Shown one piece after another: positions 41,667 to 48,348 of a DNA stretch of 64,000 nucleotides. Numbering within the stretch: position 1 is the stretch's first letter; every line of letters begins with the position of its first letter. Both the position numbers and the translations under genes were made by a program. The DNA is from Collybia mongolica. Lineage: Eukaryota > Basidiomycota > Agaricomycetes > Agaricales > Clitocybaceae. The DNA is taken from assembly GCA_013420905.1 (NCBI GenBank), contig JAAXNY010000005.1:3224001-3288000 (forward strand). Reading direction: 5' to 3'. The notes under the pieces are model-generated. The model was given only the letters and a program-made list of their open reading frames with translations. It searched no databases and was not told where the DNA came from.

Positions 41667-41792
41667 GAATGGCGCCGGTTCGAATTTTTTGATTTTTCGC
41701 CTTTTTTTTATTTAAAAATCACTCAAACACATGTGGGACAATGTGACAATAAGTGACTAGTGACGAGAGTGACTAGCAGTTAAAGCACAATG

Positions 41793-41905
41793 TACGGTGC
41801 GTCACCTGTACCAGCCAGGATTTTAAGATCAGATATGTAAATTCATCATGGACCGTTGGAATTTTGAACCATTCAATGTGATGGCAGTTCATTTAAGGCA
41901 TCTAT
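41793..41905 (+). repeat. Left terminal inverted repeat of the 6.2-kb element
   Basis: Matches the reverse complement of ~47866..47984 over more than 100 bases with scattered substitutions, for example CATCATGGACCGTTGG against CATCATGGACCGTCGG. Confidence 0.85.
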
Positions 41906-42956
41906 CACAGCTTAGTCAGCGTTCTTTTCACATTGGCTGAAATCGGTTTGTTCGTTGACTTGTTCTCACCTGTCCCAGACCAGATTTCACTCTCTGAGCA
42001 CATCAACTTATCTGTTCATCAATGAGTATTCATCAATTGAATAAGGTTTCAACAGAGGATGTCTCTCCAATTGACTATTGACATAATTGGTGAGAATTGT
42101 TTGTTCTTCGAGGGTGGCAAGTCCTGATACCCATCCCTCTAAAGGCTTTCTGAGTAATGGATTGAGGTTCTGGAAGTAAGTTCATATGGTCTTAAGTTAG
42201 TATTGACACTAATACCCTCCTTGCAGCAACAAAGGCTCTATTTCATACAATTCCATGCTGCCACATCCATAGCTTCTAGGACCTCGTAAATATTGACTCC
42301 CATAAGGACTACTGTACAATCCTCCCACACAATCAATGGTTTTACTTCTGCTATACAGGTGGATTTAGGCCAAGAAACTCCTGGACCAGGCTCAGCAGCT
42401 ACTGAAGGTGTGCTTGGGTACATCTCAAATTTCTGTGGTACTGACCATATTACAGTGCAGCCCATACGCTCCAATGTCCCCAACTTGGGAATGGACAGAA
42501 ACCAAGGTATTTTGACTTCACCTATCCACGATTGGCCATTAACATGTACGTCAGGTCTCAGCAGCAATTACATGTATCTAGTGTGCATTTTGCTCTTGTT
42601 TTAATCTCTGTCCTGAGAGTCTTCTAAATGGTTCTTTCTATGCAGCTCTTTTCATAACTTCCGGGTGGAACAATTGTGGACACAACTCAGCAATGGTCAT
42701 CCGCGCGGATTTGGGCCAGAGATTGGTCAAGGTGAGGGCAACTGGGAGTGATCTCAGCTTGATATAGTTAATATGTGTTTGTAAGAGTTCAAATTGTCTC
42801 AGCCATGTGTTTGTGAATAGACCCCCAGAACATTTCTGTATTACATTCAGGATGCTTCAGCCAGTGATGTTGACTCTTAGAATTTTGATGTGAAGCAGCA
42901 CCTGAATGCCTTAAGAACTGAGACAATTCCATCTAATTATCACCAGCTCCTATAGT

Positions 42957-44555
42957 ATGTCCGCAGGACCGTCGAACAATAACCCAACTGGGATCAATCA
43001 GTTTAAAGATTGCCATGCGTTGGAATCTCTTCCTTGAGTGTTCTGATTATTGACCAGTCCTCATAGCCAGAGCAGATGACAGCTTTGTCAAAGCTATTAT
43101 TCACAAGTATGATCATCGAGGTATCATGAACTGGGATCTGATCAGTGAGATGCTCCTCGCCAAACACAATATTCAAATGAGGTAATGGTATATTTACTAC
43201 TACTCATATTGCGTTGTGCTAATGTATCATTGCATAGCTCGACTACAGTTGCATGCCATCATGATAAGTATGGCCTCGTGGGAAGTGGGCACACAACTAA
43301 GAAGCTCCCACTACCAGTCAAATGGCAACTAGTGTTGGATGAAATGGCCAAGGATCCAACCAGTAGGAAAGGGCCGAAGATGATTATTGAGGGGATTGGT
43401 CTTACCAAGGGTATCCATCTGACTCAGTATGATGCTGGAGATCCTTTCACTGGTCCTTTTTTTTATTCATATGCCCCTTTGACAGTGAGTTTGTTCATTC
43501 GACGATGCACGCTGAGGATCCCAAAGGTTTTAGTATTCGTGAACCTTCTGCTAAGAAGATCAAGCGAGGGGTTTTGACCGCAATTGGTCCCCATCAAGAA
43601 TGGAGTGGTGATGGTCATGATAAACTAGCTGCAATTGGCTTCCCAATCTGGGGGATGCGTGATAAATGGGGGTCAAAATGGTTAGGGCTCTGGGTAGTTC
43701 CAAATAATCAACTCAAGAAAGCAATTGCTTTGTTATATCTTCGACTCATTAAGAAGCATGGAGGTGAGCAGTGTTGGTTAACTGATCTGACTACTGCTAA
43801 ATTTTATATTCTAGGTATGCTGATTCAGACAAGTACTGACTGTGGGAGTGAAACCACTGAGGTGTTTGGTTTAGCCAACGCACTGAGGTAATTTGTGTCA
43901 GGCTTTCCGAATGACTGCTTACCTTGTCTCCAGGGAGATATTTTTGAGCCATCTTGATATCAATGACCTCCTGGCCCACTGCTTCATACAGAGCATCCAC
44001 AACATCACAATCAAGTGAGGATGGCTTTGCCTGCGTCTTCAATGGGGTGACAATGTCAAGGTGTTTTGGGAAGTTGGCTCTGAGATCTACAACGAGTCCA
44101 ACATGGCACAATAGTGATTTTTACTCTTTTTAACATTGTCACTATTCTTATTCTGGCCCAGTAACCTTGTTCAATGGCTCTGGTTGACTCTGATTCAGTC
44201 TGAACTCAATGGTCTACTAGATCATTTCAACAATCATGTCACAAGAAAGGACCGAGGAAAGCAGCTACTGTCAGGGGTTTCTCCCAATGTTGCTATGGCC
44301 ATGCCATCAAAGTATGGTGGTGAGAATTGTTTGCAGAGGGTGGATATGGATGTTATTGATAAGCTGATGGCAGAAATTGGTGAGGAAGTCCTCCAGTTTG
44401 TCACCCCAGAGTATGCGGAGCATGCACAGACAGTTTATGATTCTCTTGATCTGGGTCGGTTAACGTTTGATAATGTCTGGCATGTATTTATGGCAATGCT
44501 CCCTCATTTAGAGTCATCTACTTATTCTTTTTTTCTGATGCTCCACTATGTTTAA
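42957..44555 (+). pseudogene. Integrase-core (rva_4-like) transposase with two in-frame stops
   Basis: A plus-strand multi-exon gene starting MSAGPSNNNPTGINQFKDCH. Further exons give ADDSFVKAIIHKYDHRGIMN, KKLPLPVKWQLVLDEMAKDP, HEFVHSTMHAEDPKGFSIRE, the RNase H-like core GPHQEWSGDGHDKLAAIGFP (first Asp), RDKWGSKWLGLWVVPNNQLK, LIQTSTDCGSETTEVFGLAN (second Asp), GWLCLRLQWGDNVKVFWEVG and LVQWLWLTLIQSELNGLLDH, then YGGENCLQRVDMDVIDKLMA. This protein type is common in Agaricomycetes. A TGA at 43035..43037 ends SLP before the next exon, and a TGA at 44016..44018 interrupts NITIK/GWLCL, where the family normally carries Arg. Both are compatible with CGA to TGA change. Other introns are intact GT-AG. 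Confidence 0.78.
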
Positions 44556-44635
44556 CAAAATTGCAACAAGTTTATTTGACAATATATATATACAAGGGTT
44601 TAAGCTCATAGATCAAGATATGAACTTGCCCGTAA

Positions 44636-47012
44636 CTAGGGAGAAGGAAATCCATGACAAAGTGGGCCATCACTTCGAATTTGGGCTCCCTTGAGTTTAA
44701 GTTTTTTGGAGAGATCATTGCATTTATGGGCATTTCGCCATGCTTTGATTTTGACAGAACCACCATCCCAAAATCCGGTGTCTGCCTCCTCACTATGAAG
44801 TAATTGAGATTAGGCATGATAGAAAAATCAAGTGACATATGAATGTGCCTGTGTGTCAAATAAGATCACAGACTGCGATGGGCCAACAGCACCTCCAAGG
44901 TAGAAAAAAAATGTCAGGGTATATACTTGAGTAGCATGACATAGTTCAGCCAACATACCTTGTAAATCAGTTAGCAAGATAGCTCCATTTGAATCAACTA
45001 GTGTGTGATGAGCATACGCATCCATGGCACTGCTAACAACATCAATACTGCGCCCAGCTGTAGTACTCCCACTAAACTTTCGTTCAGTGTACAGTCCTGA
45101 CATATCAAGGAGTGACGCTGCAAGGAAGGTTTCAAAAAGGAGGCTTGAAGTATCATCAAGCCAGAAGTCAATAACTTTTCCAAGGAAGGCACCTCAGGAG
45201 TTCCACCGGATACCTATTTCCAATCCTGCTCAATGCAAATACAATGCCATCTTTGAAAGGTCAAACATACTTGGGATCCGAACTTTGTAGGTTTCTGCTC
45301 GTTGCGCAAAAGACTCTGCAAAGTATTGGCCATGAACAAGAAATTTAAGTTCAGCCAAAAGGTCTGAGTGGTTGGATGCTTCGGTAACATTGTCACCCTG
45401 CTTGCACTGGAAGATAGCATAAGGTACATTATCAAACTGACCCTATGCATAATCTTAGGATTCACCGGAATGGATGAGCTATACACCACATACCAGGAAT
45501 GCAAACTTTGTAGCACCTTTCGAAAGGTATCCATCCTCCAGCTTATCACCCTCACTATATTTACACCAGTTTTTGGAAATCTTAATCTTCTCCTCAAGGC
45601 TAACCGTTTCTTCAAGATTCCCTTCACTATCTATCGAGATCGTGGTCTTTTGAAACTCGTATGATGTGTACTCAAGCTCAGACTTTCCATGAGCAGTGGA
45701 GAGAAGCTTGCGAGGGCGGTATGAACTTGTATATTCTGTAGTCATTGAAATACCTATTTGGAGGCAATAATTAGGAATGGATTACGAGATGACCAGGCAA
45801 TAACATACTGCCAGATGCTTTGCACTTTGCACTGGGCTTGCCACAAGTTGAGGTGGTGCATGCAGATGAGTGTCTAAATGATGATTGGTTTAATGAATCA
45901 TACTCATCCATGTCATCCAAGATCTACACAGTTTTAGTATATTAAAAGTGAAAAGGGTTAGCACAACAGACTGAATGTGCTTCATAAACATAGACACGAA
46001 GGCTAAGTCGGCAATCCTTGATATCAGACTCCGAGAGTTTGGAATCTGCCTTAAGTGCATTAAACATGGTTTCTGTGCTCCCTAGAATGCACTCCTCTGT
46101 TTGCTTGAAATTATAGACAACCTTGGCAGATTGGTTGATCCCAAAAACAGCACTACAATAGGTAAAGTTTTAGAACATGTCCAATAACACATGATAAAAC
46201 ATTGGATCTCACTTGTTGAAATTCATGGCATTGATCCCACCAATATTTGATGCCAGGGATTCCAACCATGCCTTCTTGAGTTCATTCTGAACAGTATCCA
46301 AGACTCACCTGGCAGGATCTGATCCAAAGTACTTTTTCAAAACAGGTAAAAGTTGAGCCTTCAATACATTAACATGTCAGTGGAATCAATCAAAGTATAA
46401 CCTAGTGGAGTGAGAATTAGGCTCACCTTCTTCACCACTCCACCATTTTTCGGATAGTAATACAGTGTAGCTTCTGCAGTTACCATGTCAGCCTTTGCTT
46501 GTTTCTTGAGTGTTGCAAGTTTGTTTTTAATTTGTGCAGCATTGGCAGCTTGGAGACCTGCATTAAGCATTGGAGGTTGATTAAGACGGTATTGAGATGC
46601 CGTCGATTGGTATTGGACAGCATGCGAAATGATAATATCCTTTACGGTATTTGCTGTAATGAGGAATCAATATCCTCTGTGATCTGACTTGAGCTGAACA
46701 TACCATTTGCAGACGACGTTGAGGCTAGTAGAAAATGAGACTCTTAAGGGAATCACTTGAAAATATCACATACCCTCCATGCAACTTCCACAGAGTACAT
46801 TTTTCATGAAGGGATACACAACTGAACAGTTTTCGCACTGTGGCTGATTCTAACATTGTTTGTCAGTACAGGAGAAGTTAGACTGCGAAAGATATGCCTA
46901 CCGCGATTACCTCACAGTCGACAGAGGAAGCCGAGGAAAGTTTAATACACTTCATGCACATTGGCTCATTGAGCCCGCGGAATAACACAGCACATCCAGT
47001 ACATAGCCCCAT
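44636..47012 (-). CDS. Alpha-type protein kinase with two N-terminal zinc-ribbon modules, transposon-borne
   Basis: A minus-strand multi-exon gene. It starts MGLCTGC; the first module is CTGCAVLFRGLNEPMCMKC and the second, after an intron, is CENCSVVYPFMKNVLCGSC, both C-x2-C-x11-C-x2-C. A helical region follows (MLNAGLQAANAAQIKNKLAT, YYYPKNGGVVKK, LKKAWLESLASNIGGINAMN). The alpha-kinase domain covers the last ~300 residues: GYLSKGATKFAFL, the candidate ATP Lys in VPYAIFQCKQGD, FLVHGQYFAESFAQ, FETFLAASLLDMSGLYTERK, MDAYAHHTLVDSNGAILLTD with LQG, then SVILFDTQAHSY. After the last intron comes ADTGFWDGGSVKIKAW with HKCND, the C-terminal His/Cys motif of alpha-kinases. The frame appears open throughout. 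The last acceptor (GTGAG near 44778) and some early junctions are inferred. Confidence 0.75.
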
Positions 47013-47865
47013 GGTAAGAATGTGGTGTGGTATACAAAAGCAGGACCAAAGGTTAACCAAAGGCTGCGAAAAAAATTAGGTTCAAAGCGCGAAGTTGTAC
47101 CAGGCAGACATACCATCAACCATCACATTGCTAGCATATAACCAACACAAACTCTGAAACAGCAAATACATTGTTAGTTGAGAGTACCGTAAATTTATGT
47201 GGTTGAATCTTCACCTCCATCAGCCCCGTCTGCATCATGCTTGTAAGTTGTACTTTGAATTGAGATGGTGGGCATCAATATATCGGGACTTTAACTATTT
47301 GAGCAGGGCACAAGGTGGGTAACAGAGATCGATCATACACATAAAACTCTGGGAGGTTCCGAGTAGACCTGCACTAGCACACCAGATGAATCTAACACAC
47401 AGCGTGAGATGCCAGTGGGAAGAGCTTGTTCTTGGTCGTTCCGCTGGCTCCCAGACAAGATGGGAAAGTAAGTGTTCCGTCATAAATCCAGCTGCATGGT
47501 TAGGATATAATGGTTTAGAATATGAAAGCAGGGTCGACATGCTAGACCGGTGACCAATCCTGCTATGAGACAAGCATCGAGGACTTGTCCCCCCCTTATA
47601 AGGGATGGTCATGAGTCTATTGAGCTGCTTTGGACCGTATTGAATTCAGTGTCCCCAACTGTCGGAAGAAATTGGCAGAATGGTGTGCATCATGTGATCA
47701 CAAATTCTTACCACAACCGTGACAGAACGTTGCGCACATACCCCAAGCTTCAAGCTTCAAGTTGAACGTGGAAGGCACACTATGTCCTTCACGTCTTCCT
47801 AAATATATGATAGTTCTAAACCTCTTCCTACATCCCCACATAAGTACTGGGCTATAAATATAATA

Positions 47866-47984
47866 GATGCCCTTAATGTCGAAATGAACTGCCATCCACA
47901 TCGAATGGTTCGAAATTCCGACGGTCCATGATGAATTTACATTTCTGATCTTAAAATCCTGGCTGGTACAGGTGGCGCACCGTA
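47866..47984 (-). repeat. Right terminal inverted repeat of the 6.2-kb element
   Basis: Inverted partner of 41793..41905. It is a few bases longer owing to small insertions. Confidence 0.85.
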
Positions 47985-48323
47985 ACAACGAGAAGGGATT
48001 TTAGCTCAAGTCTCGAGGGAACCGTTATAACAATAGTAGATTCAAGGTAAGCTAGGTTACATACAGACCGAGAAGGACCTTTATATAGGTAGCTAAGGAG
48101 GTGTGTATGTAATGTAAAATTTTAGTGAATTAGAATGAATAGAACGAAAATTAACTGTATAGCCTCGAGAGATCGAGGCGTCGATCAATTATAGTGAATT
48201 GAAAGCGGGAAGGAAAAACGAGAGGGTGGAGAGATCGGAAACCCGGTAAGTTTTTCATAAGTTTTTTTAGGGGAAGGAAAAGAGGGACAGCCCGAAGGGG
48301 AGTCACGAGTTTCGATCCTTACA
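47985..48323. other. Unexplained repeat-like stretch right of the 6.2-kb element
   Basis: AT-rich with a TATATAGGTAG box near 48081 and a hairpin CCTCGAGAGATCGAGG near 48163. No coding signal. It could be a decayed LTR fragment. Confidence 0.35.
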
Positions 48324-48348
48324 GACAAGCTTTTCCGAAACACCTGTA
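48324..48348 (-). repeat. 25-base motif, right copy of an inverted pair
   Basis: Reverse complement of 37718..37742 without mismatch. It lies just outside the right end of the 6.2-kb element. Confidence 0.7.

Follow-up and report, generated by a model that had tools for sequence, protein, structure and literature searches.

The IS3EU superfamily of DNA transposons is characterized by TA..TA ends, target duplications usually of 6 bp and an integrase-like DDD/E transposase (PMC10045372); the accessible text of that account, which the element described here resembles in ends, duplications and transposase, mentions no kinase. Closer still are the TET/JBP-bearing IS3EU elements of rusts and Tuber indicum, in which a transposase and an alpha-kinase are oppositely oriented (Kojima, 2025; PMC12730594). 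Styx, an IS3EU-related element of Zymoseptoria, likewise has inverted repeats (36 bp), 6-bp duplications, a DDE transposase and extra genes, but these are GATA-, CCHC- and DUF3577-domain genes with no alpha-kinase among them in the available part of the report (PMC10853768). The element considered here is a 6192-bp unit at positions 41793..47984 of a 64,000-nt stretch of the Collybia mongolica genome (GCA_013420905.1, contig JAAXNY010000005.1, positions 3,224,001-3,288,000; hereafter the window, in its full length). It is read as a decayed cut-and-paste IS3EU transposon in which the alpha-kinase is a regular gene of the element, most likely aiding its spread, a reading to which we assign a probability of about 0.83.

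Alignment of both ends placed the left terminal inverted repeat (TIR) at 41793..41894 (+ strand), starting with TACGGTGCG, and the right TIR at 47882..47984 (− strand), ending with CGCACCGTA. The two share an 88-nt ungapped match at 94% and, when extended, 97 identical positions in an alignment of 102 against 103. An earlier note made from this DNA had described inverted repeats of more than 100 bases bounding a 6.2-kb unit, and the ends were found exactly at 41793 and 47984. The unit is flanked by the 6-mers ACAATG (41787..41792, + strand) and ACAACG (47985..47990, + strand), which differ by one change. It splits an older repeat resembling a long terminal repeat (LTR) into a left part at 41742..41792 and a right part at 47985..48324 (both + strand). 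Four copies of this repeat without the interruption, two on C4 and two on C9, are ∼96-98% like the right part. All four read through AAAGCACAACGAGA and carry ACAACG, the right-hand copy of the duplication. These empty sites and the flanking 6-mers together indicate that the element inserted here and duplicated 6 bases, with a later change at one base of the left copy. Empty sites and target duplications, named in the earlier note as checks, were thus recovered as four empty sites and as exact duplications in three sister copies, the duplication of the window copy itself agreeing at five of six bases.

When the whole genome (46 Mb in 26 contigs) was searched with the end sequence, eight ends forming four pairs were recovered, namely, the window copy and three sisters, C5b (C5:170067-181736), C6 (C6:727634-733384) and C13 (C13:2476663-2482557). 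The sisters have both ends and both genes in common with the window copy, so that the further copies called for in the earlier note do exist, and each is flanked by an exact duplication (GACTGG, ATCTGG and GCTGTG, respectively). Both genes are open in C5b and C6, and there is one stop in each gene of C13. The TIRs align across 103 positions in the window copy, 124 in C6 and 58 in C13. C6 and C5b are 99.9% identical across 5.6 kb, from which it follows that the family multiplied recently; in the gene regions, the window copy is ∼79-81% like C6, and C13 is ∼68-70% like the window copy. The open sister copies point to a kinase that moves with the element and evolves as one of its parts. Low copy number, with only four copies of this family, could be taken to mean that the inverted repeats are paired by chance or that unrelated genes have become nested together; the separate 6-bp duplications of the four copies, the empty sites and five more elements built alike (below) leave that explanation a negligible probability. 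Close to its right end, C5b also harbors a nested ∼5.9-kb insertion that has the ends CAAGGGGGTCCC and is flanked by an exact duplication of 8 bp, TATAATAG, a duplication length that presumably points to the KDZ group.

Within the ends of the window copy lie a DDE transposase (rva_4/integrase core; 42957..44510, + strand), with seven modelled exons from 42972 (model 42972-44510) and a possible ATG at 42957, and, convergent with it, an alpha-kinase gene of 12 modelled exons (PF02816; 44639..47012, − strand). The arrangement of genes reported in the earlier note was borne out by these models and by Pfam matches to rva_4 and Alpha_kinase in the C6 copy. The gene models are computed, the genome searches were run exon by exon and hence give lower bounds, and for divergent kinases the models cover the catalytic part only. 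All three transposases scanned, that of C6 included, scored above the Pfam cut-off for rva_4 (PF24764). The C6 kinase scored 56.4 bits against the curated Alpha_kinase cut-off of 21.3; kinases of three other elements scored 48.3, 42.7 and 98.2, and the window exons 28.3. In the window copy, both genes are broken. The transposase has an altered codon at the presumed catalytic Glu (44013-44015) and an adjoining premature stop (44016-44018; the lesion spans 44013..44018, + strand), and the kinase is interrupted by stops at 45194..45196 and 46305..46307 (− strand). The claim that the kinase looked complete and had kept its frame while the transposase had not is therefore withdrawn, since the window copy has two stops in its kinase against one in its transposase. 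Alignments to 4kuj, 1ia9 and 5dyj showed that the kinase keeps the DxQG, DPQ and zinc H-x-C-x3-C motifs, which we take to serve catalysis and zinc binding. Known alpha-kinases bear other parts, such as a channel. Compared with the solved structures from Entamoeba (4kuj), TRPM7 (1ia9) and MHCK A (3lkm), the element kinase is set apart by N-terminal CxxC pairs and perhaps by a middle region forming a ubiquitin-like domain.

The association of the two genes extends well beyond this family. Whole-genome Pfam analysis identified 13 alpha-kinase matches, and the C6 transposase query gave 53 matches grouped into 18 loci. For eight of the 13 kinase matches, a transposase locus is found less than 3 kb away (379-2190 bases), an outcome with a chance probability of ∼2e-17 (with 20 loci as territory), or ∼5e-13 for 6 of 11 when three copies of one family are collapsed; reciprocally, 11 of the 18 loci have a kinase match within 3 kb. 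Local modelling raised the pairing to 10 of 13 by adding C1:5131974, with rva_4 confirmed, and C2:416387, with a 117-residue transposase fragment. The unpaired matches are C9:3210105 (transposase 7.7 kb away, without ends), C12:546116 (transposase 11.6 kb away) and C4:4403856, for which neither a transposase nor ends were found in 9.4 kb.

Ends were sought at 15 loci, yielding nine complete elements, four of the window family and five of other families, and six loci without a complete element. The scan for the five required TA ends and a 6-bp duplication with at most two mismatches; complete elements scored 21-24, none of 15 order-1 shuffles per locus exceeded 15, and five loci without ends scored 0-13. 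Each of the five holds both genes: C16:153392-160320 (duplication GGCGAT, ends 31 nt ungapped) has them convergent; C4:1258852-1264617 (CGGTCT, 33 nt ungapped), C5:680016-686522 (CCGGTA, only 28 nt ungapped) and C1:5130974-5136490 (AGTTAT, ends measured across 24 only) have them on the same strand; and so does C1:152588-158524 (CTCGTC, 41 nt ungapped), with the kinase upstream. Of the 13 kinase matches in the Pfam list, complete elements contain 8, and the C13 kinase, absent from that list, is a fourteenth. The suggestion that carriage in such elements accounts for the spread of alpha-kinases is upheld to this extent in the present genome; other Agaricomycetes were checked by protein lists.

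A 6-bp duplication flanks all nine complete elements (eight exact; window copy 5/6, with the original seen in the empty sites), and all nine have TA..TA termini, TA being required by the scan for five. The fuller motif TAYGG..CCRTA is present at both ends of the window element (as TACGG..CCGTA), C5b, C6 and C1:5130974, and at one end only in C13. The TET/JBP-bearing elements are matched in their 6-bp duplications, TAYGG..CCRTA termini, inverted repeats longer than 30 bp and opposed transposase and alpha-kinase (PMC12730594, in the text accessible). They differ in having a TET/JBP gene between the two genes. No TET/JBP gene was found between transposase and kinase in the complete Collybia elements, the sole match in the genome, C5:4428003-4428410, lying outside all nine, and some of the Collybia families, unlike the published elements, have both genes on one strand. 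The supposition that no element of this design had been described thus needs qualifying, since the pairing is in print, in passing, for TET/JBP-bearing IS3EU (PMC12730594, likewise as available), and what is added is elements without TET/JBP.

An integrase-like core is common to Ginger1/2, GingerRoot, IS481EU, Polinton and IS3EU, and GingerRoot, whose duplications are 6 bp and whose ends are mostly TA..TA, appears in print coupled with IS3EU (PMC10045372, accessible text). The window element might accordingly belong to one of these other integrase-type groups. The duplication lengths given in the same text, 4 bp for Ginger1, 4-5 bp for Ginger2 and ∼4, 15 or 25 bp for IS481EU, argue otherwise. 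Polinton does duplicate 6 bp, but the two gene models show no Polinton gene beyond the integrase (no exhaustive gene search was made). In the literature covered, as far as its accessible text goes, an alpha-kinase is reported for IS3EU alone among these groups. Membership in another group is considered improbable.

Similar pairs were identified in other fungi. Four of 12 kinase homologues lie on a contig equal in length to that of a transposase homologue and have a locus tag adjoining its own (Lyophyllum shimeji 0409960/0409970, Termitomyces T32 005461/005462, Tricholomella 002423/002422 and Paramarasmius 018299/018300), and a fifth, from Phlegmacium, was paired by equal-sized contigs only; for the other seven, no neighbor was present among the best 120 of 196 transposase matches. 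The named transposase homologues among the matches listed are from mushroom-forming fungi, and a third, alignment-based search gave five more matches, short or partial. Transposase and kinase distances across 12 pairs (seven from this genome, five from other fungi) were correlated with r = 0.88, a value reached in none of 5000 permutations, and across the eight closer pairs with r = 0.84 (P = 0.001). Excluded beforehand were C5b (near-identical to C6), the fragmentary C8, C15, C1:1083k, C9 and C2, and C1:5130974 (kinase unmodelled). The kinase and transposase trees, whose comparison the earlier note had proposed, agree in their main order and disagree on Phlegmacium and within C16, C4 and C5:680016. 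The best account of this correlated divergence is that the two genes descended together as a unit.

Purifying selection has acted on both genes with about equal strength over the life of the element. Between the window copy and C6, the kinase has a dN/dS of 0.148 (0.112-0.194) and the transposase one of 0.142 (0.102-0.195); in the comparison with C13, both genes give 0.05-0.10, with synonymous sites near saturation. In eight pairs, the kinases have 3 stops in 3257 residues and the transposases 7 in 3159 (P = 0.22), counts in which several kinase models are partial, favoring stop-free stretches, and C6 and C5b, almost one sequence, are counted twice. With dN/dS equal (0.15 and 0.14) and stops not clearly fewer, the proposal that the kinase is selected on its own was not supported. 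Equal past selection and correlated divergence make the kinase look like a gene of the element and not separately selected cargo.

An alternative is cargo: the kinase would be a host gene taken up by the transposon, kept for the benefit of the host and only spread by the transposon. No stop occurs in the 885 residues of the kinase models for C16, C4, C5:680016 and C1:152588, against 1, 1, 3 and 0 in the respective transposases, and the C4:4403856 kinase stands apart from any transposase or ends, as noted. However, partial local kinase models avoid stops, the window and C13 kinases carry two and one, and the excess of stops in the transposases has a P of 0.22 or, in the larger set below, 0.14; matched selection and divergence also oppose it. 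We regard the cargo explanation as unlikely, marginally more so than membership in another integrase-type group.

Several observations weigh against a kinase that is a regular gene of an IS3EU element. The window element is placed in the IS3EU superfamily by its structure. C16, C4 and C5:680016 start with TACCG, unlike the TAYGG of rust IS3EU, and the ends of C1:152588 are degenerate. Gene order differs between families, being convergent in the window family and C16 and same-strand in the remainder. Seven of the 18 transposase loci (C1:7969k, C4:4880k, C4:4909k, C5:4465k, C9, C12 and C10; ends sought at C9 only) have no kinase match within 3 kb, and the kinase may therefore be dispensable. When the decayed C8, C15 and C1:1083k loci are added to the eight pairs, the kinases have 7 stops in 3563 residues and the transposases 16 in 3951 (P = 0.14), a slight kinase advantage; these fuller counts of loci and stops slightly favor the cargo explanation. 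Copy ages rest on likeness only, without observed movement, and Foldseek by itself gave no matches at E 0.001.

CpG loss in the older copies is read as a likely footprint of cytosine methylation. The observed/expected CpG ratio is 0.40 in the window copy and 0.39 in C13, compared with 0.78 in C6 and 0.87 across the remainder of the window; CpG transitions number 16 in the kinase and 19 in the transposase on the window branch and 2 and 1 on that of C6. The lowest ratio of the eight elements measured, 0.12, was that of C16:153392-160320, the 31-nt ends of which are nonetheless identical.

By analogy with its family, the transposase would pair the inverted ends, excise the element and join it to a target with strands offset by 6 bp. 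The kinase, with its motifs kept, would act as an active kinase, and the CxxC pairs and possible ubiquitin-like middle would serve as docking parts. That it helps the element is proposed because it shares both the selection and the descent of the transposase. The preferred, unproven guess is that it phosphorylates chromatin or silencing proteins and so counters silencing by cytosine methylation. This guess is based on the ability of the TRPM7 alpha-kinase to phosphorylate histone H3 (PMC12699267, in the accessible text) and the proposal that TET/JBP on related elements counters methylation (PMC12730594, likewise), together with the likely methylation footprint. The kinase could instead act on the transposition reaction, where phosphorylation of the transposase, of a partner or of a regulator of the cell cycle would time or license movement. 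The association and co-divergence of the two genes fit this equally, and the kinase is present in elements without a TET/JBP gene. We give such a direct role somewhat less than an even chance, about as likely as counter-silencing; it competes only with this last proposed step and not with the reading of the kinase as a gene of the element.

Beyond the accessible text of PMC12730594, the present data add elements without TET/JBP, varied gene order, evidence of selection and co-divergence, and 8 of 13 kinases in complete transposons. It is, in our judgement, unusual for the protein kinase of a DNA transposon to have been under the same selection as the transposase, and a single assembled genome now offers elements that are open, have multiplied recently and lack TET/JBP as material for testing what the kinase does. 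The alpha-kinase family has been called highly expanded in rusts (PMC4469406) and is listed in a Pfam comparison table of rusts (PMC5295586), and an alpha-kinase appears among genes under diversifying selection in a candidate-effector study (PMC4150398), each in the text accessible. The finding raises the question of whether the growth of this family in fungi mostly reflects the copy number of transposons. A bolder and rather doubtful extension would make the alpha-kinase a core gene of basidiomycete IS3EU that predates the family split and acts as a counter-silencing chromatin kinase, a phosphorylating equivalent of the TET/JBP carried by transposons. In that case, much fungal alpha-kinase growth, rusts included, would reflect the copy number of selfish elements and not host gene evolution.

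Three minor features were also observed. A separate integrase locus, C8:3084380-3085013, was the sole rva_4 match in the whole-genome Pfam scan and was missed by the C6 transposase query. The LTR-like repeat split by the window element has copies on C4, C9 and C10, the C4 and C9 pairs lying 7-9 kb apart in the same orientation, as LTR pairs would. A second inverted repeat of 40 nt at 90% (41157-41196/41627-41666) is present immediately left of the window element.
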